From contig JAFWYP010000051.1 in NCBI GenBank assembly GCA_017517665.1, positions 1 to 41,461 of the forward strand: a DNA stretch of 41,461 nucleotides. Reading direction: 5' to 3'. Positions 557-10,718 of the stretch are shown here, one piece after another. Origin of the DNA: Clostridia bacterium (lineage in GTDB: Bacteria; Bacillota; Clostridia; Oscillospirales; Acutalibacteraceae). Within the stretch, counting starts at the first letter, position 1. Every line of letters starts with the position of its first letter. The notes below the pieces were generated by a model that was not told where the DNA came from, searched no databases, and was given only the letters and a program-made list of their open reading frames with translations. A program made the translations under genes and the position numbers.

Positions 557-1330
557 CTAGACTTCAACGCTCGGAAGAGGATTGTTGTTTTTAGGGGGAA
601 GATTCTTCCCGAAGTTTGCTCTGAGCTTTTCGTGATAATCTTCTATCGGCAGCCAATGATTTCTGATTGCTTCGGCGAGTTTGAAAATATGATCGTTATC
701 TCTTCCCACAAAATATTCTGATTTACGATATCCGCTGACGGTTTCTTCATCAAGCAAGCCGAAAGCAAGTCTCATTGCGTCCAGAACGTCAATGATTTCA
801 AAACGGTAGGGAACTTTGAGATGAGGTTTTTGTTCGTCAATGCTTTCAATTAGTCCGGCAAAGTCACCATAGATTTTCGTGTAGTTTGTGATTCTCATCA
901 TTTCGCTTTCCATATGACCAAGTTTTTTCCCTATGAATGAATCTATTCTTTCAATCGTATCTTCCTGTTGCTTTTTCAGTTTGTTATATTCTTCGCTGAG
1001 GCTTGTTTCTTCATTGTTTCTGAAATATACCATCACTCGGCTTATGTCTTTTACGGTTTTATCGGGTTTATATTTGAAAATATCCTTATCATGATACCTG
1101 AAGAGAAACATTGCCTTTTCATCCAGCTGCTGTTTTTGTTCTTCTGTTATTTCACCGAAGAAGCATTCATCGATTCCGAAAAACTCTGAAAGCTGTCGGA
1201 GTCTTTTAGCGGAGATTTCTTTTCTTGAGTTTTCCCATGCACTGACTAACTGCCTTGACACATTGAGAATATCTGCGATTTCTCCGATTGTGAAATTGCA
1301 TTTTGTTCTGATAATTTTTAAACCATTCAT
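557..1330 (-). CDS. Xre-family HTH transcriptional regulator
   Basis: This is a 257-residue protein. Its N-terminal ~60 residues form a classic Cro/CI-type helix-turn-helix: IIRTKCNFTIGEIADILN, then VSRQLVSAWENSRKEIS, then LRQLSEFFGIDECFF. The remaining ~190 residues are helical and charged with no recognised enzyme motif; they may act in dimerisation or sensing. The start ATG at 1330 has an AAGGAG site. The gene diverges from the four-peptide cassette at 1619 across a 288-bp region with promoters on both strands. It is therefore a natural candidate to repress or autoregulate that region. The HTH assignment is firm; the target is inferred from position only. Confidence 0.85.
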   Translation of the reverse strand: MNGLKIIRTKCNFTIGEIADILNVSRQLVSAWENSRKEISAKRLRQLSEFFGIDECFFGEITEEQKQQLDEKAMFLFRYHDKDIFKYKPDKTVKDISRVMVYFRNNEETSLSEEYNKLKKQQEDTIERIDSFIGKKLGHMESEMMRITNYTKIYGDFAGLIESIDEQKPHLKVPYRFEIIDVLDAMRLAFGLLDEETVSGYRKSEYFVGRDNDHIFKLAEAIRNHWLPIEDYHEKLRANFGKNLPPKNNNPLPSVEV

Positions 1331-1618: not shown

Positions 1619-1753
1619 ATGGTTTTCTGTTTTACAGCAGCTGCAGCAACGGCAGCGAAGGCAATTACCGTTGCCAAAGCGCTTTCGGGCATAGGCGCAA
1701 TTCTTATGAGCGTTCAGGCTGTTTCAGACAGTGTCAAGGCTTATAAGGGCTGA
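1619..1753 (+). CDS. Short Ala-rich hydrophobic peptide 1 (44 aa)
   Basis: ATG at 1619 follows a strong GGAGGTGA site (1607-1614), and 44 codons run to TGA at 1751-1753. The peptide begins MVFCFTAAAATAAKA and continues as an amphipathic to hydrophobic helix (ALSGIGAILMSVQAV), ending in YKG. It has one Cys and four Lys. It could be a single membrane-spanning or membrane-binding helix. It is the first of four consecutive mini-genes, each with its own near-perfect Shine-Dalgarno site. The ribosome site and clean frame support translation. No homologue is recognised and the function is unknown. Confidence 0.65.
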   Translation: MVFCFTAAAATAAKAITVAKALSGIGAILMSVQAVSDSVKAYKG

Positions 1754-1781
1754 AATTCTCTTTTTTAAGGAGGTGATTTTC

Positions 1782-1850
1782 ATGTTTTCCATTTTAGGTT
1801 CAATTCTTGTTGCAGTTGCCACAATCATTGAGGTTGTTGCAAGCAACTGA
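1782..1850 (+). CDS. Short hydrophobic peptide 2 (22 aa)
   Basis: ATG at 1782 follows an AAGGAGGTGAT site (1767-1777), and TGA ends at 1850. The 22-residue product is almost wholly hydrophobic: MFSILGSILVAVATIIEVV, then ASN. It has one acidic residue and no basic one. It is long enough to span a bilayer once. It resembles, in size and character only, small membrane-active peptides such as type I toxins or phenol-soluble modulins; no homology is claimed. The strength of the ribosome site is the main reason to accept so short a gene. Confidence 0.6.
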   Translation: MFSILGSILVAVATIIEVVASN

Positions 1851-1888
1851 GCTTCATATATTAATTAGGTTTAAGTGAGGTGATATTT

Positions 1889-1972
1889 ATGACGTCTTGT
1901 TTGCTTTTATGGGGAGTTAAAACAGCCTGTGTTCTGGGCTGTAAGGTTGCCAGAATGATGTTCCTTGCATAA
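1889..1972 (+). CDS. Short Cys-containing hydrophobic peptide 3 (27 aa)
   Basis: ATG at 1889 follows GAGGTGAT (1877-1884), and TAA ends at 1972. The 27-residue peptide starts MTSCLLLWGVKTACVLGC and ends KVARMMFLA. It has three Cys, one Trp and three basic residues, so it is a cationic hydrophobic helix candidate. It is the third member of the four-peptide cassette. Function is unknown; the evidence for reality is the ribosome site and the regular spacing from its neighbours. Confidence 0.55.
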   Translation: MTSCLLLWGVKTACVLGCKVARMMFLA

Positions 1973-2020
1973 TTCTGTGCATCCGGATATACATAATCTT
2001 TACAATCAGGAGGTGATATT

Positions 2021-2197
2021 ATGATTAAGCCCAGTACTCTGAATCTTATGCCGGTCAAGGTGTACGGTCTCAGCCCTGCCCAGACAGGCGGACCTGTTGT
2101 TAAAACGGGACCCACCGCCGGTCAGAACCGCAGCCGTAACAAAAACGGCCGCTGGCGTGCCAAACGCAGTGACGCAGGCGTGCCCCGCAGCAAGTGA
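2021..2197 (+). CDS. Short strongly basic peptide 4 (58 aa)
   Basis: ATG at 2021 follows a near-perfect AGGAGGTGAT site (2008-2017), and TGA ends at 2197. The 58-residue product is hydrophilic. It is Pro/Gly-rich in the middle (PAQTGGPVVKTGPTAGQ) and very basic at the C-terminus (NRSRNKNGRWRAKRSDAG), as in disordered nucleic-acid-binding or antimicrobial tails. Its codons are noticeably more GC-rich than those of the large operon downstream. It is the last gene before the terminator at 2277. No family is recognised. Confidence 0.65.
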   Translation: MIKPSTLNLMPVKVYGLSPAQTGGPVVKTGPTAGQNRSRNKNGRWRAKRSDAGVPRSK

Positions 2198-2276
2198 TGC
2201 TGCAATTGGATTTGTCAACCAAAGAACCGTAACCGAAATTCGTATCAGGTTTGGTTCTGAGCTTTCCTTTCTATTT

Positions 2277-2324
2277 AAAAGGCACGGATTACAGCTGAAA
2301 ACTTGCTGTAACCTGTGCCTTTTA
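2277..2324 (+). terminator. Terminator of the peptide cassette
   Basis: A long imperfect stem (2277-2295 with 2305-2322) closes on a 9-nt loop and runs into TTTTAGTTTTG. It separates the four-peptide transcript from the NTPase operon, which has its own promoter at 2347-2375. Confidence 0.75.
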
Positions 2325-2346
2325 GTTTTGAATTTAAATAAATATG

Positions 2347-2375
2347 TTGCATTAATCGAAATAATATTATATATT
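2347..2375 (+). promoter_or_regulatory. Promoter of the NTPase-HEPN-CARF operon
   Basis: TTGCAT (2347-2352) and TATATT (2370-2375) are separated by exactly 17 bp, ~30 bp upstream of the first gene. This is a normal housekeeping-type promoter, unlike the repeated elements upstream of the peptide cassette. Confidence 0.6.
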
Positions 2376-2409
2376 TAAAATATAACTTTTTAATCGGAGA
2401 TGTATGATT

Positions 2410-5400
2410 ATGAGCAGAATATCCGAAAATTTCTTTAAAAATCCGCACACCATTCTTTATATAGGAAAAAACGTTTCCAACGAAGACATAAAGAAGTATT
2501 ATGCTGTTTACAATTGGAAATGTGTTATTACCTGCAAAACAGATGCAGAATTTGACGACTGTTTTAAAAATTCTGTGTCGATTAACGATGTAGAAACATT
2601 ACCTGAATTCAGTTTCACAAGAATGCCTGTTGTCAGGTTGTTCGGGATGGGTGATAATCTTCCGTCAAAACCTACGGCGAGAATATATTTTGCGAGCATT
2701 CTAAAATTATTGCAGGCTGTGCACTCCTTGGTTGCGGTTGGTATAACAGAAGAAGAAGCGTGGATATTTAAAAGCGAATATGTTTATGAAGAACTCAAAA
2801 GAATCAACGGTAAACGCATATCGTTTTTTTGTACTGATCCTAAAATTTTTGATTTCTATCAGGATGAGGATTATGACTTTTTCAATATTGAAGATAAATT
2901 CGGCTTCCACAGCGAAAATCCTGCCAATATAATTGAAAAGAGCCGAGAAAAAGCAGAACATCTTAAAGAGGAATATCCGGAACTGAATGATTACAGCGTT
3001 GATTTTTATTATCGTGACCATAAACCCGTTCAGTTTATAGAAGAAGATTTCAGAAACTTCAAAACATTTGGCACAATTCTTACCTTTAAAACAGTTAATC
3101 AGCATATCGGTACAAGATATATAAAAGACTCATTTATAAAATTCCTTGAAAACAGTTCAACGTTTCCACAGTGGTATGGTTACCGACCTGACCTGAATTT
3201 TTATGTTGAAAGACAAATCGAAAAGGAACTTTTGGAAGCTGTAAAAAACGGTCTTGATAAAAACAATATGACTTTTGTGCTTAGAGGAGACTCGGGAAGC
3301 AGTAAAAGCGTTATTCTTGCATCAGTTGCTTACCGTATTTTTGGGGAAGAAAACAATCCCGTTGTTTATATCACAGAAAAAATAACAGACGATTTGAAGT
3401 TTGACCGGTATTCAGATTATTTGAATGAAACTGTGGAAAAACTTCAGGGTGCCGAAAATAAAAGGGTTTTGATTGTCTGGGATCATTCCGTTGCTGATAT
3501 AAAGAGCATCCAAAAAATAGAAAATTCTCTTGAAAAGGTAGGCAGACGTTTCGTTCTTCTTTGTTGCGGTTATAAGACTGTCAGTGCGGAAAACTCTTCG
3601 AGGAATCTGAAAATTTTCGATGTTGAAAGAAGCTTTTCGGTTGAAGAACGCAATAAAAGTTTTGAACTGATCAAAAAATACACAGACATAGATTTTGATG
3701 ATGTTGCAGAAGAGTTAAAAGGATGCGATGATATCTTCTTAATCTTTTATACGGTAATTAAACAAATACGCAGAAGACTCCGTATAAAAATAAGAATCGA
3801 ACACAAGTCAATTTATGATTATGTTATTGGTAAGATTACAGATCTTTCAGATAATAAAAAGGCAGTAAAAAGGCCAAATTCCGATGCGATTCTCGAGCAG
3901 TTTAAAAAACTCGGTCTTGTTGATGAAAACTGTTCTTTTTCAAAAGAAAAAGATGAGAATTCAGAAGATATGAAAGAGCAACTGGATGATTTCAACTTAG
4001 CAATCGCTATGTTCAGTCAAGCCGGTCTGGAGTTGCCTGCCGATATCGCTTACCATATCTTTTTTAAAAGCGACGATTTGAGAAAAACTATATATTCAGA
4101 CAGCAACATGGAAACATTCCGTGCATTGAGTAATATTCCTTGGTTGAGATATAATGATTCAAATGATAATCTTTCTTTCTCCTTCAGAATTCCTCTTGAG
4201 GCAGGTTTTTTTATTGAAGATTATGTTGCGAAGAATCCCAGTAATAAATGGTTCGGAAAGCGGTTTGAATTACTTGAAAAAATAATAAAGCTTTATTCGA
4301 GTCAGGCAAAAACAACGAGATTAAAAGATCTGTTTTTCACCTATAACCTACAAATGATGCTTAGAAACACAGGACCAAACTCATCCGAGTACAAGACAAA
4401 CGAAAAATTTAGAATAGAATTTCACAATAAAATAACACAAAATGTCAAAAAACTTATTCTTGTTGATGATAGTGTTTCTGAAACAACAGATAATGACGGC
4501 GGTTTTTCAGCTATTTATATTAATTTTGTCAGAGAGTATTATAAAAGCTTTGTGGACAAATACATCGGCGAAGAAGGATCAGTCAACGGTGAAACAACTA
4601 AAAAAGCCACAGATGCTCTAAATGATGCAATCGACAATGCCGTTAAAAGAATAGATAGTCTTGATAATTTGATTAGCGGTGATAATATTGATGCTCGCTC
4701 AAAAAAATACAACCTTAAGCAACGCAATACCCTTATAAACGAAGTGGCAATATGCAACAATTATCTTAAAAAACTTGGCTATGACAAGCCCTTGCCATAT
4801 GATACAGTTTGCGGATATTTACGCAAAGCCATTTCATCAAACAGATTTGACAGCTATCTTTATGGCAGTTTATTTGATACTTTTTGCACGTTCTATGATT
4901 CGTTCAAAGATGATCAGGAAAAACTTGAAAACTTTATAAAAATATTCGAAACCATCAATGAATGGAAACTTCTTAAAAACAACGATTCACAAGAAAGCAA
5001 ATCATACAAAACGGTTAATCGAAAAATTGAAGCTATTAAAGATATAACGTCGCATTTGCCTGAAATTTCAATTGACAGTATTTCTAAGGGCAAAACTGAG
5101 CCGTTCGACATGCTTTATCAAAATAGAAAGAGCGATGTTATTGTTTTGGCTTGTTATAAAGAATTGGAAAGAATTCAGGATGTTTATCATTATAGCCCCG
5201 ATACAGACAGAGCAACTATTGAAAAAGTCTATATGTTCATGTCCGAAAACTATTCGATTTTAAAAGATTCTTCAAATGCTATGAATTTGCTCATCAGAGT
5301 TGCGTGGATGTATTTCAGCGGGTATACTCTTGACAGCAAAAAAGAGCGCCAGTTAACAAAAATTTCTGTAGGCGATTGGAAAGAGTTGAAAAAATATTGC

Positions 5401-5832
5401 GAAGTTTATTCTGAATTACTTAAAGATTCTCCCGAATATAAGCAGCCTGATATTTGTCTTCTTTATGTCCTTTCAATCTGTCAGATAAATTATTTTGAAA
5501 AGAGTGAACTGCTGAATTCAGAAAAGGTAAAAGGAATTCTTCTTTCCGACGACTGGTTTGATGACCGCGGTCGAATGCGCACCCCATTTGTTCTTTGTGA
5601 TGATGACAAAGGCAAACCGTTGGAGTTCATCGGCGTGGTGGAAATGAATAAACTGACATCTGACGGCGGAAAAATGAGTGTGGAAGGCCATCCGATGAGG
5701 TTAAGGTTCAGAAACAGCAATATCGGAAGAGATGTTACTCCGAATATCGGTGATAGAATCAAAATTCATATTGGAATCGGTTATGCAGGCTTCTCCGCAT
5801 GCATATGCGAAGGGGGGAACAGGCAGTTATGA
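2410..5832 (+). CDS. SIR2-like/STAND-like P-loop NTPase, putative defence protein
   Basis: The protein has 1140 residues. The first ~150 look like a degenerate SIR2-like Rossmann fold: WKCVITCKTDAEFDD matches the W-x-x-VITTNxD strand region, MPVVRLFG matches the K-L-H-G strand but lacks the catalytic His, and SLVAVGITEEE matches the V-G-hydrophobic strand. A Walker A variant, GDSGSSKS (293-300), has Ser instead of the usual Gly before Lys299. A Walker B-like VLIVWDH ends at Asp358-His359. A long helical region follows, as in STAND ATPases, and the last ~90 residues are beta-rich. ATG 2410 is preferred over 2404 because GGAG (2396-2399) is 10 nt away rather than 4. The stop overlaps the next start (ATGA). 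NTPase function is fairly sure; the SIR2-like call is pattern-based. Confidence 0.7.
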   Translation: MSRISENFFKNPHTILYIGKNVSNEDIKKYYAVYNWKCVITCKTDAEFDDCFKNSVSINDVETLPEFSFTRMPVVRLFGMGDNLPSKPTARIYFASILKLLQAVHSLVAVGITEEEAWIFKSEYVYEELKRINGKRISFFCTDPKIFDFYQDEDYDFFNIEDKFGFHSENPANIIEKSREKAEHLKEEYPELNDYSVDFYYRDHKPVQFIEEDFRNFKTFGTILTFKTVNQHIGTRYIKDSFIKFLENSSTFPQWYGYRPDLNFYVERQIEKELLEAVKNGLDKNNMTFVLRGDSGSSKSVILASVAYRIFGEENNPVVYITEKITDDLKFDRYSDYLNETVEKLQGAENKRVLIVWDHSVADIKSIQKIENSLEKVGRRFVLLCCGYKTVSAENSSRNLKIFDVERSFSVEERNKSFELIKKYTDIDFDDVAEELKGCDDIFLIFYTVIKQIRRRLRIKIRIEHKSIYDYVIGKITDLSDNKKAVKRPNSDAILEQFKKLGLVDENCSFSKEKDENSEDMKEQLDDFNLAIAMFSQAGLELPADIAYHIFFKSDDLRKTIYSDSNMETFRALSNIPWLRYNDSNDNLSFSFRIPLEAGFFIEDYVAKNPSNKWFGKRFELLEKIIKLYSSQAKTTRLKDLFFTYNLQMMLRNTGPNSSEYKTNEKFRIEFHNKITQNVKKLILVDDSVSETTDNDGGFSAIYINFVREYYKSFVDKYIGEEGSVNGETTKKATDALNDAIDNAVKRIDSLDNLISGDNIDARSKKYNLKQRNTLINEVAICNNYLKKLGYDKPLPYDTVCGYLRKAISSNRFDSYLYGSLFDTFCTFYDSFKDDQEKLENFIKIFETINEWKLLKNNDSQESKSYKTVNRKIEAIKDITSHLPEISIDSISKGKTEPFDMLYQNRKSDVIVLACYKELERIQDVYHYSPDTDRATIEKVYMFMSENYSILKDSSNAMNLLIRVAWMYFSGYTLDSKKERQLTKISVGDWKELKKYCEVYSELLKDSPEYKQPDICLLYVLSICQINYFEKSELLNSEKVKGILLSDDWFDDRGRMRTPFVLCDDDKGKPLEFIGVVEMNKLTSDGGKMSVEGHPMRLRFRNSNIGRDVTPNIGDRIKIHIGIGYAGFSACICEGGNRQL

Positions 5833-6812
5833 GCAACAGCGAAACAGGCCCCATTATAGGTAAAGAAAAAGCTGAAGAGATCAATGAGTCTCTTCAAAAA
5901 ATGATTGACCCAAGACTTTTTTTCTTTTGCAATTATACACCGACTCCGTTTACCCCCGGGCCCGGGAACGATGAAGCCCAAATTTTGGTTGCAGTTCAGG
6001 ATTTGTATAAGTTTGCTTTTGACTCAACCTTTGTTTTTAAAAAATTTATTATTAAAGAAGCATCTCCCGATGCAAAAACAGCTCTTGATTTCATAGAAAC
6101 TCTTCGTTCAGTAATAGACCATAATCAAAGTAAGTTTAACGGATTTACTGAAAAGAACTATCTGAAAAAATACAATAATTTTTTTCCCGAAAATAATTTT
6201 GCGTCTTTGTATGAAAGGTTGAAAGAGGCGGCAGATACATTAATTATTGCGGCAAAGCACTTTATCGAAACCAAATCAGAGTGTGAAAACAAAGAAGAAT
6301 TTGTTGAAAGTTGGATAGATGAAACCATTAAGTGGTATTCCCAAACCGTTAAATCTTCAATTTTTTGGGGAGTTTTGATTGATAAGCTGGGATACTGTGA
6401 TGATTCGACGTTTCTAAACTATTTTATAGCCTCGGAATATCTAAAAACAGTTATTAAGATTGGAGATGAAGAACATAGTCTTGCTTTCGTTTTGGAAAGG
6501 ATCAAAAACTATCCCGATTTACTGGACCGTTTGGAAAACAAATTGAACGCTCACTTTAAAGCTAATAAGGCTAAAATAATCGGTGAAGTACAGAAAACTA
6601 AAAAAAGTATGGATCCCCAAAATACTGTAAGCTTTTCAAAATGCTTTTATGAAAAACTTTGGAAAGAATCTGTTAAAAAGACTATTAATAGTTTACAGGG
6701 CACTGAAACTCTTTTGCCGCAAAGTCTGTTTAACAAATATATTGATGAAGAATTTTATCCTGAAAACTATTTGATGGATTGGATAGTAAACCAAGAATGG
6801 ACTGATTTATGA
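5829..6812 (+). CDS. Predicted HEPN-like helical protein (possible RNase)
   Basis: The product has 327 residues from ATG 5829, which overlaps the preceding stop as ATGA. This start is favoured over an earlier in-frame ATG at 5799 inside the NTPase gene. The protein appears all-helical and carries TLRSVIDHNQSKFNG at 91-105: Arg93-x4-His98 followed by Asn-Gly. This fits the Rx4-6H signature of HEPN domains, which are metal-independent RNases or RNA-binding modules in toxin-antitoxin, abortive infection and Csm6-type proteins. No second domain is recognised. The next gene again overlaps by ATGA, so the two products are probably made in step. The HEPN call rests on one motif and on context, so it is moderate. 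Confidence 0.5.
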   Translation: MSNSETGPIIGKEKAEEINESLQKMIDPRLFFFCNYTPTPFTPGPGNDEAQILVAVQDLYKFAFDSTFVFKKFIIKEASPDAKTALDFIETLRSVIDHNQSKFNGFTEKNYLKKYNNFFPENNFASLYERLKEAADTLIIAAKHFIETKSECENKEEFVESWIDETIKWYSQTVKSSIFWGVLIDKLGYCDDSTFLNYFIASEYLKTVIKIGDEEHSLAFVLERIKNYPDLLDRLENKLNAHFKANKAKIIGEVQKTKKSMDPQNTVSFSKCFYEKLWKESVKKTINSLQGTETLLPQSLFNKYIDEEFYPENYLMDWIVNQEWTDL

Positions 6813-7432
6813 TGACAAACAAAGATTTTTTTGTAACAATCCCTATGCTTCCACCTGAAAAGTTGGAAGAGCTTAATTATGTCAAGGAGGGCAAACCCGA
6901 CGGTGTGAAGTCAAGAAAAGTTTCTTTTCCTTCGCTTGCAATGATTGAGTGGAATGCCCAAAAAGACGATGATATCAGAATTATTGCCGTTATGACGGAT
7001 GACGTTAACGGTTTTTCCGTTAAAAATCTTGAGAAATTCAAGCGTGAGCTTTCAGAACTTTCCGACGATATCGGTATTGAATTGAGCGTTGAGGAAATCG
7101 TTCACGTTCCTCACACCGAATCGAAAGAAAAACACAACAAGCTTTTTAAGGAGCTTTGCGCCCTGTTCAAAAATGGGCGTGATATCTATATGGAACTGAC
7201 TTACGGCACTAAAGTCACACCCATAGGTCTGTTTTCATCACTGACCTATGCCGATAAAGTCTGCGGTTGCGACATCAAAAGTATTATTTACGGGAACTAC
7301 GCTTTTAATGATTCAAAAATCGGCAGTATTTACGACATACGTTCTATGTATGATTTCAGTATGTTTATTCATTCCGCAGAGTTTCTGACCAAGGAAAACC
7401 TTGACATTGTTTTAAATAACATCTGGGGGTGA
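6809..7432 (+). CDS. TM1812/Csx-type CARF-like protein
   Basis: This 207-residue protein has the layout of the CARF/TM1812 (DxTHG) family. An N-terminal alpha/beta half carries a strand IRIIAVMTDDV, then IVHVPHTESKEKHNKLF. The signature DIYMELTYGTKVTPIGLFSS (125-144) corresponds to the DxT-H/Y-G loop and helix that line the ligand pocket. The next strand, KSIIYGNY, matches the family's I-x-x-I-Y-Y-G segment. CARF domains bind cyclic oligoadenylates or related ligands. No effector domain is fused, so effector action would come from the HEPN-like or sigma-like neighbours. Its start overlaps the upstream stop (ATGA) and its stop overlaps a GTGA at 7429. There is no CRISPR array in the window. 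Confidence 0.65.
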   Translation: MMTNKDFFVTIPMLPPEKLEELNYVKEGKPDGVKSRKVSFPSLAMIEWNAQKDDDIRIIAVMTDDVNGFSVKNLEKFKRELSELSDDIGIELSVEEIVHVPHTESKEKHNKLFKELCALFKNGRDIYMELTYGTKVTPIGLFSSLTYADKVCGCDIKSIIYGNYAFNDSKIGSIYDIRSMYDFSMFIHSAEFLTKENLDIVLNNIWG

Positions 7433-7437
7433 TTTCT

Positions 7438-8619
7438 TTGAACAAGAATTCATCCGATAATCCGGTTCTTTCCAAAAAAGAAAGAGCAGAGCGTGCTATC
7501 AATGAAGCGGCAATGAAAGCACATAATGCTAAAAATACAGATAGCTATGAAGAACTGGCGAAAGAGTTATACAAAGTTGTCAGTATCGAATATTCGAATT
7601 ATCTGGAGGAAACTGTTGCCGCGGGAGCAAAGTTTGTCTGCTTGGCGGATAAAAGAAACACCAAGGAATATGACATTTTTTCTGACAAAACGATGCTGAT
7701 GTCAGACCTGTATTTCTGCGCAGTTCGTGACATACGGTTTCTGATGAACAAAATTGAAAACTTTGAACCTGAAAAAGTTCACGACCATTCTTTTTTAACT
7801 TATTTTCATTCATCGGTAAAGAAAGCACTCGGAATAGAATCAAACAGGGAAAAAACAAAAACGCAGAATGTAGGTCTTACCCATATTTATTCTGACCAAA
7901 AACGCGATCCCCAACTGGTTAAAAGGTTTTATAACTTTATTGAAAGTGCAAATGGTTATGACGTTAATTATGGAGCAATAAAGGCTTTTTGCAAAGCAAT
8001 GTTTGAAGAAGAAAAACAAATGAATGAAGATGAAGAAAAAGCAATGAAAGAATATGAAGAAAAAGTAATCAAGGAATATGAAGAAAGAGTAAACAGAGCC
8101 TTGGTTGCCAACGCAAACGGAAAGGTTGAGTTTGTTTACACAGGAATGGAAGATGATGATGACATCTCTTATTCGCCGTTTGATTGTTATTCTTTTAAAC
8201 AGAACGAAATACAGGAAGCAGAAAATAATGCAATCAAGATTGATGCTGTTCTTTTGAAAATCAACGAAATTTTTTCAAGGGATATACTGAGTGAAAAAAG
8301 AAAAAAGATATATTCCGCATGGATCACTGCTCGCTTCATAGAGGAAATGGTCAAAGAAACAAAAAGCATAAACAAATATATTTCGCTGAGTGATACTATC
8401 GAAAATCATTTTGACGATATTAACCTGAAGGCAAAAAAGGAAATCTATGCAAGCGGAAAATATCTTTGCATTTATCCCGAAGTTTTTGATTACGTTTCAG
8501 AACATAAAAAAAGAGTTTTGCCAAAAGATATTGCGGAATTTTTTGGCTGCACGACTGCTTATATAACCAAAGTTGTCAATGAAGTAAATGATATGCTTAA
8601 TAAAGAACAGTTTCTTTAA
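7438..8619 (+). CDS. Putative sigma-factor-like or HTH regulator
   Basis: TTG 7438 is chosen because GGGGGTGA (7425-7432) lies at ideal distance; GTG 7429 is the alternative. The 393-residue protein has an N-terminal helical region (YEELAKELYKVVSIEYSN, then MLMSDLYFCAVRDIRFLMNK, then FLTYFHSSVKKALG) reminiscent of sigma-70 region 2/3 (F-x-x-Y-h). A highly charged coiled stretch with repeated Glu/Lys (EDEEKAMKEYEEKVIKEYEE) follows. A C-terminal HTH (LPKDIAEFFGCTTAYITKVV, near 355-380) could serve as region 4. No enzymatic motif is seen. As the last gene of the operon it may direct transcription of the peptide cassette. DNA binding is likely; the sigma assignment is tentative. Confidence 0.45.
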   Translation: MNKNSSDNPVLSKKERAERAINEAAMKAHNAKNTDSYEELAKELYKVVSIEYSNYLEETVAAGAKFVCLADKRNTKEYDIFSDKTMLMSDLYFCAVRDIRFLMNKIENFEPEKVHDHSFLTYFHSSVKKALGIESNREKTKTQNVGLTHIYSDQKRDPQLVKRFYNFIESANGYDVNYGAIKAFCKAMFEEEKQMNEDEEKAMKEYEEKVIKEYEERVNRALVANANGKVEFVYTGMEDDDDISYSPFDCYSFKQNEIQEAENNAIKIDAVLLKINEIFSRDILSEKRKKIYSAWITARFIEEMVKETKSINKYISLSDTIENHFDDINLKAKKEIYASGKYLCIYPEVFDYVSEHKKRVLPKDIAEFFGCTTAYITKVVNEVNDMLNKEQFL

Positions 8620-8638: not shown

Positions 8639-8671
8639 AGCCGCCATTTCATTTTGAAATGGCGGCTTTTA
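8639..8671 (+). terminator. Terminator of the NTPase-HEPN-CARF operon
   Basis: AGCCGCCATTTCA (8639-8651) and TGAAATGGCGGCT (8655-8667) form a perfect 13-bp stem with a 3-nt loop, followed by TTTTA. It ends the four-gene operon 20 nt after its last stop. Confidence 0.85.
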
Positions 8672-9197: not shown

Positions 9198-10718
9198 ATA
9201 AACGTAGTAATCTACGCAAGATTTTCAAGTCACAGTCAGACGGAGCAATCAATCGAAGGTCAGCTGAAAGTATGCTATGAGTATGCCGCCGCCAACGGTC
9301 ATTATGTTATTGATGAGTATATTGACAGAGCGCAAAGCGGAACGTCTGATAACCGAACGGCATTTCAGCAGATGATAGCTGACAGCGACAGACGAACTTT
9401 TGAAGCGGTGCTTGTTTATCAGCTTGACAGATTTGCAAGAAACAGATATGACAGTGCAATCAACAAAGCGAAACTGAAAAAGAACGGCGTGCGTGTTATC
9501 TCCGCAAAGGAAAACATAACGGATGATGCGTCGGGAATTCTTGTTGAAGGTGTTCTCGAAAGTATGGCGGAATATTATTCGGCAGAGCTTTCGCAAAAGA
9601 TTCGCAGAGGAATGGATATCAACGCACAGAAATGTCTTTCGAACGGCAGTCTGCCCGGTTTGGGATTCAAGGTTGATGCGGACAGAAAATTCTATATTGA
9701 TCCCGAAGCAGCAGCTGTTGTCAGAGAGATTTACGAGCGTTATGCAAGCGGCGAAACTGTCGCAGAAATCAACAGAGATCTGAATGCAAGACAAATCAAA
9801 ACCGCACACGGAAAAGAGTTCAATAAAAACAGTCTGCACCGTATTCTGCGAAACAAACGATACATCGGAGTTTATCTTTACAAGGATATGGAAATCCCCG
9901 GCGGTATGCCGAGGATAATCGAAGATGAATTATTTGAAAGAGTCCAGCATATTCTCAACAAGAACAAGCAGGCTCCCGGCAGAACAAGAGGCAAAGAAGA
10001 ATATCTGCTGACAACAAAACTTTTCTGCGGATATTGCAGAGAGATGATGACGGGTTACGGCGGAACAAGCCGAAACAAAAATGCTTATCACTACTATTCC
10101 TGCAAAAATTCAAGAAAAAAGCTTTGTGATAAAAAGATAGTTCAAAAAGAAAAGATTGAGGACAGAGTTGTTTCGGTGTGCCGCAAATTGCTGACGGATG
10201 AAAACATCGAAAAGATTTCGAAGTCGGTAGCGGCGGCGTGTCAGGCGGATTATGACGGCTCAGGTGTCAAAAGAATAAAAGCCGCCATCCGGGAAACGGA
10301 AGCGGCAATAGAAAATCTGTGGATTGCCCTTGAAAAAGGACAGTCGGTTGATATGATAACCGAGCGAATCGAAAAGCGCAAAGCCGAAAAAGCCGAGCTT
10401 GAAGCACAGCTTGCAATCGAAATGAACAAGCAGGTTATTTACACAGAGCCTCAGATCAGACACTATCTGATTTCACTTCGCACAGGTGACTTGAACGACA
10501 TAAACATCCGCCGAGGATTTATAAATATCTTCGTGCGGGCGATTTATCTCTACGATGACAAGATGACGATTTATCTCAACAGCGGTGATAAAGAAACGGT
10601 CATTGATGACATATTAATAGATGAAACAGAGGAGTATTTTGACTCTCTGAATTCTGCTTTAAACGGTGGTTCTGCTGTGGTTGCATCTGTTCCACCATCA
10701 AAAAACCGAGTCTGTTAA
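9198..10718 (+). CDS. Large serine recombinase, apparent ATA start
   Basis: The full catalytic domain is encoded only if translation begins at ATA 9198: VVIYARFSSHSQTEQSIEGQ carries the invariant Y-x-R-x-S with catalytic Ser10. A TAGGAGG site (9182-9188) sits 9 nt upstream of ATA, and an in-frame stop at 9192-9194 excludes any earlier start. The first in-frame ATG is 9372, which would remove the catalytic Ser. The rest is typical: resolvase domain to ~150, recombinase domain, a zinc ribbon (CGYCREMM through YYSCKNSRKKLC), and a C-terminal coiled coil. The 506-residue length suits integrases of conjugative or defence islands. The stop lies inside the terminator stem. The gene probably mobilised the adjacent island. 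Confidence 0.85.
   Translation: MNVVIYARFSSHSQTEQSIEGQLKVCYEYAAANGHYVIDEYIDRAQSGTSDNRTAFQQMIADSDRRTFEAVLVYQLDRFARNRYDSAINKAKLKKNGVRVISAKENITDDASGILVEGVLESMAEYYSAELSQKIRRGMDINAQKCLSNGSLPGLGFKVDADRKFYIDPEAAAVVREIYERYASGETVAEINRDLNARQIKTAHGKEFNKNSLHRILRNKRYIGVYLYKDMEIPGGMPRIIEDELFERVQHILNKNKQAPGRTRGKEEYLLTTKLFCGYCREMMTGYGGTSRNKNAYHYYSCKNSRKKLCDKKIVQKEKIEDRVVSVCRKLLTDENIEKISKSVAAACQADYDGSGVKRIKAAIRETEAAIENLWIALEKGQSVDMITERIEKRKAEKAELEAQLAIEMNKQVIYTEPQIRHYLISLRTGDLNDINIRRGFINIFVRAIYLYDDKMTIYLNSGDKETVIDDILIDETEEYFDSLNSALNGGSAVVASVPPSKNRVC

Follow-up and report, generated by a model that had tools for sequence, protein, structure and literature searches.

A standalone CARF gene followed by a sigma-70-like gene forms a recurrent pair and joins a STAND ATPase in a probable conflict operon of a Clostridia bacterium

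We describe a four-gene operon, A-B-C-D, that occupies positions 2404-8619 on the forward strand of contig JAFWYP010000051.1 (41,461 nucleotides, hereafter the window), which is contig C54 of the 2.77-Mb, 68-contig draft genome of a Clostridia bacterium of the family Acutalibacteraceae (assembly GCA_017517665.1, 88.67% complete). Our main finding, drawn from sequence comparison, is that the third and fourth genes of this operon, which encode a standalone CARF protein and a divergent sigma-70-like protein, represent a recurrent gene pair in which the CARF gene comes first. The identities of the encoded proteins (a STAND ATPase, a CARF protein, and a sigma-70-like protein), the overlapping gene junctions, and the occurrence of CARF-sigma pairs next to conflict machines of unrelated kinds elsewhere are the features on which we base our interpretation. 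Taken together, they suggest that the locus is probably a CARF-regulated conflict system of novel composition with an antiphage role. The anatomy of the locus is genuine: four micro-peptide genes, a hairpin, the overlapping genes A-D, and a serine recombinase follow one another. The tight overlap that an earlier note on this DNA had reported is confirmed, with ATGA junctions between A and B at 5829 and between B and C at 6809 and a GTGA junction between C and D at 7429.

Gene C (6809-7432, forward strand) encodes a protein of 207 residues that, by its profile matches, belongs to the CARF2/TM1812 group of CARF proteins, in agreement with the TM1812/CARF-like label it had been given. It matches the PADLOC model PDLC01820 with an E value of 3.5e-40, and its three best matches are all standalone CARF models; type III Csx1 models are matched as well, more weakly (PDLC01345, E 4.8e-19). 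The match to TIGR02221 (cas_TM1812; E 9e-8, 32.3 bits) falls under the curated cut-off of 76.25, so C is a relative of that family and not an equivalog. The profile built from our CARF alignment (A1) also matches a CRISPR-associated protein of solved structure, 8y75_A, at E 8.5e-8.

Gene D (7429-8619, forward strand; 396 residues), the partner of C, had been proposed to be sigma-like, and this label holds at the level of profile comparison. The D family without D itself aligns to regions 2-3 of SigA (E 8.6e-5), the family including D aligns with RpoD (E 1.2e-4), and D joins the family by hhalign over 92 columns of the C-terminal part (E 2.9e-6 in a single comparison, 88% probability). Pairwise, D matches no other family member, and by itself it yields no telling Pfam match, helix-turn-helix (HTH) models included. 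When seven members of the family were compared with Pfam, Sigma70_r3 was detected in three (best E 0.0024) and Sigma70_r4 in two (best E 0.052), neither of them in D. The C-terminal HTH that the earlier note had assigned to D appears by alignment and in the predicted model, although Pfam finds none in D itself. A Foldseek search with the predicted model returned sigma-factor or RNA polymerase entries in its first 33 rows, though none of these is significant. By these comparisons, D is a divergent sigma-70-like protein.

The two genes had previously been treated as separate components, whereas our survey identifies the C-D pair as the conserved part of the operon. The CARF model was searched over 394 genomes of the order (a control matched 2 of 14 named genomes) and gave 10 matches in nine genomes, including that of the window. 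Adding a Treponema plasmid, a faecal phage contig, and two further genome contigs to the order matches gives 13 distinct loci, a count that omits two duplicate copies (L025 and L026) and one partial locus (L013). A member of the D family lies directly 3' of the CARF gene, on the same strand, at eight of these 13 loci (the window and L014, L015, L016, L017, L018, L019, and L024). The eight partner proteins range from 291 to 396 residues; six are linked by pairwise similarity, that of L024 resembles that of L017 by eye, and D enters by profile. Searched in its own right over the 394 genomes, the D family gave full-length matches in five, and all five lie directly behind a CARF gene. At three more loci (L020, L021, and L023), the CARF gene is followed by a second partner family whose members are mutually similar and weakly sigma-like; the Pfam matches are below cut-off (Sigma70_r2 at E 0.0032 in L021, Sigma70_r3 at E 0.23 in L023, none in L020), and the family profile matches SigI1 at E 0.031. 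Neither partner family follows the CARF gene at the remaining two loci, L022 and L027. At L027 (9989-11635), the CARF relative is instead followed by a gene that, by eye, is GGDEF-domain-like.

The genes that accompany the pair differ from locus to locus. According to Pfam, genes for a vWA protein, a PP2C phosphatase, and a protein kinase stand behind the pair in L016, and PP2C and protein kinase genes do so in L018, where a vWA-like protein can also be recognized by eye; similar triad-like proteins are seen by eye near the pair in L015. The pair in L019 lies beside an AAA+/M41 peptidase protein, and that in L014 has a bpMoxR and a vWA protein some 3-7 kb beyond it, with other genes between (both from Pfam). 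Cas6 is found near the CARF gene and its second-family partner in L021 (Pfam), and RAMP-like genes are apparent by eye in L021 and L023. The window's own pair is joined to the STAND ATPase A and to B. The pairs in L017 and L024, the latter from a record titled uncultured Ruminococcus, each follow immediately on a cinA-like gene (by eye), and no evident conflict gene adjoins them.

Gene A (2404-5832, forward strand) encodes 1142 residues and, by its Pfam match, carries a STAND-type P-loop domain, as had been claimed. The match to nSTAND_NTPase5 (PF25199) spans residues 265-389 at E 2e-10 and 41.1 bits, over the cut-off of 34, and contains the P-loop GDSGSSKS at residues 295-302. In this Walker A motif, a serine replaces the second glycine of GxxxxGKS. 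The parts of A on the N- and C-terminal sides of the STAND domain carry no assignment. The degenerate SIR2-like N terminus that had been proposed for A did not find support: no Pfam SIR2 model matches A at E <= 1, and residues 3-259 have no telling match among solved chains (best E 0.53), nor does the whole protein, which leaves the SIR2 label unproven. Gene B (5829-6812, forward strand; 327 residues, or 337 from an earlier ATG at 5799) is predicted to be all-helical, with a single-sequence model whose mean predicted local distance difference test score of 42 is too low to interpret. As for the suggestion that B is HEPN-like, the protein holds one R-x4-H motif (RSVIDH), but 6.0% of 10,000 shuffles of B also contain one, which makes the motif weak as evidence. 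No HEPN profile from Pfam or PADLOC matches B, and HEPN membership is not established; no family exceeds its cut-off, the best Pfam match below it being DUF6327.

Outside this genome, neither A nor B was found. A was detected in none of the 393 other genomes of the order among the 394 searched and in none of the other genomes among the 45 of the genus, and it was not found in plasmids, phages, viral contigs, or genome contigs, the contig scans reaching close relatives only. B was detected in none of the 299 other genomes of the family (300 searched), nor in viral contigs or plasmids. The full gene set is thus a singleton so far. The earlier note had viewed the four genes and the upstream peptide genes as one distinct system; conservation does not bear this out, for in the genomes searched the C-D pair recurs but the four-gene set does not, and in the stretches read the peptide cassette is found at other loci that lack A-D.

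As an explanation of the operon, we favor a STAND-based conflict system, most likely antiphage, with a built-in transcriptional switch, a proposal to which we give roughly even odds. Every step of the mechanism is one that we infer, the sequence identities alone holding to the degree stated above. The CARF protein C would bind a nucleotide ligand that is produced or released upon infection and, by contacting D, would let D direct RNA polymerase to the promoters of the operon and perhaps to that of the cassette as well. Transcription driven by D would make the cell produce more of A, the ATPase sensor, and of its partner B; A would sense an invader product directly, and A and B together would halt the cell or the invader. 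Because C and D would set the dose of A and B, which in turn would act on the cell or invader, the C-D pair would be a plug-in induction module rather than an effector. If a standalone CARF gene and a sigma-like gene form a portable unit that can sit beside a kinase triad, MoxR and vWA genes, a protease, Cas6, or a STAND ATPase, this would mean that bacteria use second messengers to induce entire immune operons. In its boldest form, which we consider a long shot, the proposal is that a CARF-gated sigma factor switches on the STAND receptor operon together with a set of membrane-active micro-peptides, and that the same gate is mounted on many unrelated immune machines. If true, such a two-gene immune gate would resemble interferon signalling, which induces unrelated effectors.

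Upstream of the operon is a cassette of four short open reading frames (1619-2197, forward strand). All four had been noted before, and all four are present, each with a strong Shine-Dalgarno sequence whose GAGG lies 7-8 bases from the start codon. Peptides 1-3 are hydrophobic: peptide 1 (1619-1753; 44 residues, mean hydropathy 1.03, Shine-Dalgarno GGAGGTGA), peptide 2 (1782-1850; 22 residues, mean hydropathy 1.91, Shine-Dalgarno AAGGAGGTGA), and peptide 3 (1889-1972; 27 residues with three cysteines, mean hydropathy 1.36, Shine-Dalgarno GAGGTGA). Peptides 1 and 3 match no Pfam or NCBIfam family, peptide 2 has only a sub-threshold resemblance to PSM-delta (E 0.2), and a comparison of the peptides with leaderless bacteriocins gave no profile match over cut-off. 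Peptide 4 (2021-2197; 58 residues) is basic and belongs to a strongly conserved micro-protein family of about 50 residues (consensus about GPTxGQNRSRNxNGxWRxKRSDAG), represented in the window and in L030-L034, L044, and L045; the members scanned match no Pfam or NCBIfam model. By tblastn, it is 58-81% identical over 37-48 residues to sequences in four plasmid records (Psychrobacter, Arthrobacter, and two Staphylococcus species) and 72% identical over 32 residues to gp196 of Bacillus phage G (two records), so that its relatives span plasmids of three bacterial phyla and a jumbo phage. A search with a five-row alignment (A5) found peptide 4 in three of 394 genomes of the order and in one of 45 of the genus, the window's own genome being counted in the former and the sole match in the latter. 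All three order genomes have one or more hydrophobic peptides led by a Shine-Dalgarno sequence just upstream; in L044 and L045, this peptide has 18 or 19 residues and lies 32 and 89 bases ahead of peptide 4. At the five plasmid and phage loci, by contrast, no such peptide lies right upstream, L032 being covered for 466 upstream bases only. L031 has a 16-residue hydrophobic frame led by a Shine-Dalgarno sequence 280 bases upstream of peptide 4, and the surroundings of L045 include, by eye, apparent genes for a type I restriction subunit and for an AbiE-type pair. A shorter basic motif of the peptide-4 kind (about KGPxxRKxPRKRxKxGxWRKKRSDxGKKR) is carried by three viral contigs (L040, L042, and L043), where, by eye, it opens small genes that lie between portal-like genes and capsid-like ones. 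The distribution of the peptide-4 family poses a question separate from that of the operon.

Between the cassette and A, a terminator-like inverted repeat on the forward strand (arms 2276-2295 and 2305-2324; 20 nucleotides each, 90% complementary) lies within a stretch, 2195-2345, with a folding energy of -43.8 kcal/mol (z -5.0); a simple consensus terminator scan does not list it. The G+C content is 46.5% in the cassette and 34-39% in A-D. With its own terminator-like hairpin and a differing G+C content, the cassette need not form one unit with A-D. Ahead of the cassette is a tandem direct repeat on the forward strand (1461-1510 and 1536-1585; 70% identity over 50 nucleotides, spacing 75) of the form GGTTAATT-N15-CCNGATAT. 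The pattern GGTTAATT-N13-16-CCNGATAT occurs twice in the genome, both times at 1461-1585, and not at all in a reversed control; a near form is matched only in the window copies, with 40 of 45 fetched loci having none. The repeat may act as a promoter or operator, or it may belong to a short peptide frame that is itself repeated. A TTG-started, 43-codon open reading frame (1470-1601) largely covers it and contains an LIL..VPD-like segment twice in frame; with its 75-nucleotide spacing kept in frame, the repeat could have a coding function instead of a regulatory one. The sequence CCNGATATNNATA, allowing at most one mismatch, occurs seven times in the window, where 1.85 occurrences would be expected, and three of these sites (1503-1515, 1578-1590, and 1983-1995) lie in or just ahead of the cassette. 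Divergent from the cassette, an HTH_3/Xre-type regulator gene (557-1330, reverse strand; Pfam HTH_3, E 4e-11) with phage-repressor-like PHROGs is, from its position alone, a candidate repressor of the cassette.

Downstream of D, a 12-bp inverted repeat followed by TTTT (8640-8666, forward strand) appears terminator-like by eye and is absent from the consensus terminator scan list. The adjoining serine recombinase that had been noted (9198-10718, forward strand) is borne out by Pfam matches to Resolvase, Recombinase, and Zn_ribbon_recom, all over cut-off. Its frame opens at ATA, nine bases after a strong Shine-Dalgarno sequence (AGGAGG), and contains no ATG, GTG, or TTG ahead of the first ATG at 9372; the ATA opening could reflect an uncommon start codon or a gene that has been silenced. 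Farther into the right flank, eight of ten scanned proteins have a Pfam match at E <= 1e-5, and all of these point to common metabolic, transport, or regulatory functions or to a domain of unknown function.

These features bear on how the cassette and the operon might be related. The cassette has the look of a self-contained module, given that relatives of peptide 4 occur in phage G as well as on plasmids and that a hydrophobic peptide lies upstream in both other order genomes. We consider it somewhat likelier than not that the cassette is a mobile micro-peptide module in its own right, of a bacteriocin-like or toxin-like kind, whose adjacency to the operon is fortuitous; this account is compatible with the STAND-based proposal for A-D, and the separate hairpin and distinct G+C content also speak for it. 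Its weak points are that the other order genomes with peptide 4 number only two and that the plasmid and phage loci lack the hydrophobic partner right before peptide 4. Alternatively, C and D might control the cassette, with ligand-bound CARF freeing the sigma-like protein, the repeat at 1461-1585 serving as promoter, and the hydrophobic peptides acting at membranes as effectors. In favor of this scheme, the repeat lies directly 5' of the cassette and nowhere else in the genome, peptides 1-3 combine their hydrophobicity with strong ribosome sites, and the cassette has a terminator-like hairpin of its own. We nonetheless judge it doubtful: genomes G652 and G271 have a hydrophobic-plus-basic cassette but, within the stretch read, lack a CARF-sigma pair, and neither is among the CARF matches; no near form of the repeat pattern occurs in the fetched loci beyond the window copies; and the divergent HTH regulator would provide simpler control.

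Two other accounts concern the operon itself. It might serve as an orphan accessory to a type III CRISPR system or a cyclic-oligonucleotide-based antiphage signalling system located elsewhere in the genome, from which the CARF ligand would come; this would fit the Csx1 matches of C and the surroundings of the CARF-partner pairs in L021 and L023, which by eye are type III-like. The window's own genome, however, has no match to Csm1-type Cas10 (TIGR02578), a result that covers neither Cmr2-type Cas10 nor other cyclases and applies to the 88.67% complete assembly, and the models that C matches best are standalone ones; we regard this account as improbable. Equally unlikely, in our estimation, is a role of A-D in the regulation or maintenance of an integrated element that carries the recombinase, rather than in defence. 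The recombinase sits only 0.6 kb 3' of the operon, and the G+C content of A-D (0.34-0.39) departs from that of the right flank (0.44). Yet the combination of STAND and CARF is an architecture typical of conflict systems, the recombinase frame lacks a standard start over its first part, and its G+C content (0.433) is that of the flank and not of A-D.

Several known systems share features with this operon. STAND antiphage sensors, AVAST and others, are large proteins with a STAND ATPase; A shares both the size and the ATPase, but none of the PADLOC models matches it at E <= 1. Many CARF proteins of known function bear their own effector domain. Such proteins are described in the available portions of PMC4012209 and PMC3710099, and the portions available of PMC12839542, PMC7159879, and PMC7824862 contain nothing on a CARF-sigma pair. 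A published pair of a CARF protein and a protein labelled "RNA polymerase", likened here by description only, resembles C-D in joining a CARF protein to a transcription-type partner; it lies near type III CRISPR loci, and the partial account of it describes no STAND ATPase. CARF genes also occur in CoCoNuT loci (PMC11090510) and in TerY-type loci (PMC3710099), as far as the text available from these sources goes. The likeness lies in CARF genes on non-CRISPR conflict operons, with L016 (vWA, PP2C, and kinase) and L018 (PP2C and kinase) as relatives, but the CARF proteins of those systems, in the same excerpts, are nuclease- or RtcR-like, and Pfam finds no vWA, phosphatase, or kinase domain among A-D that would place the window with TerY-P. 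In CalpL-CalpT-CalpS (PMC11229360, seen in part), a cyclic-nucleotide sensor governs a sigma factor through a SAVED domain, a Lon protease, and an anti-sigma factor; control of a sigma factor by a small-molecule sensor is common to that system and our proposal, whereas A-D include no SAVED, Lon protease, or anti-sigma match. RtcR, described in the accessible parts of PMC4012209 and PMC11090510 as a CARF-ATPase-HTH activator of sigma-54, likewise converts a CARF input into a transcriptional output; PMC4012209 deals with further CARF regulators as well. It does so within one protein and via sigma-54, whereas in the window the CARF and sigma-70-like parts are separate proteins encoded by adjoining genes.

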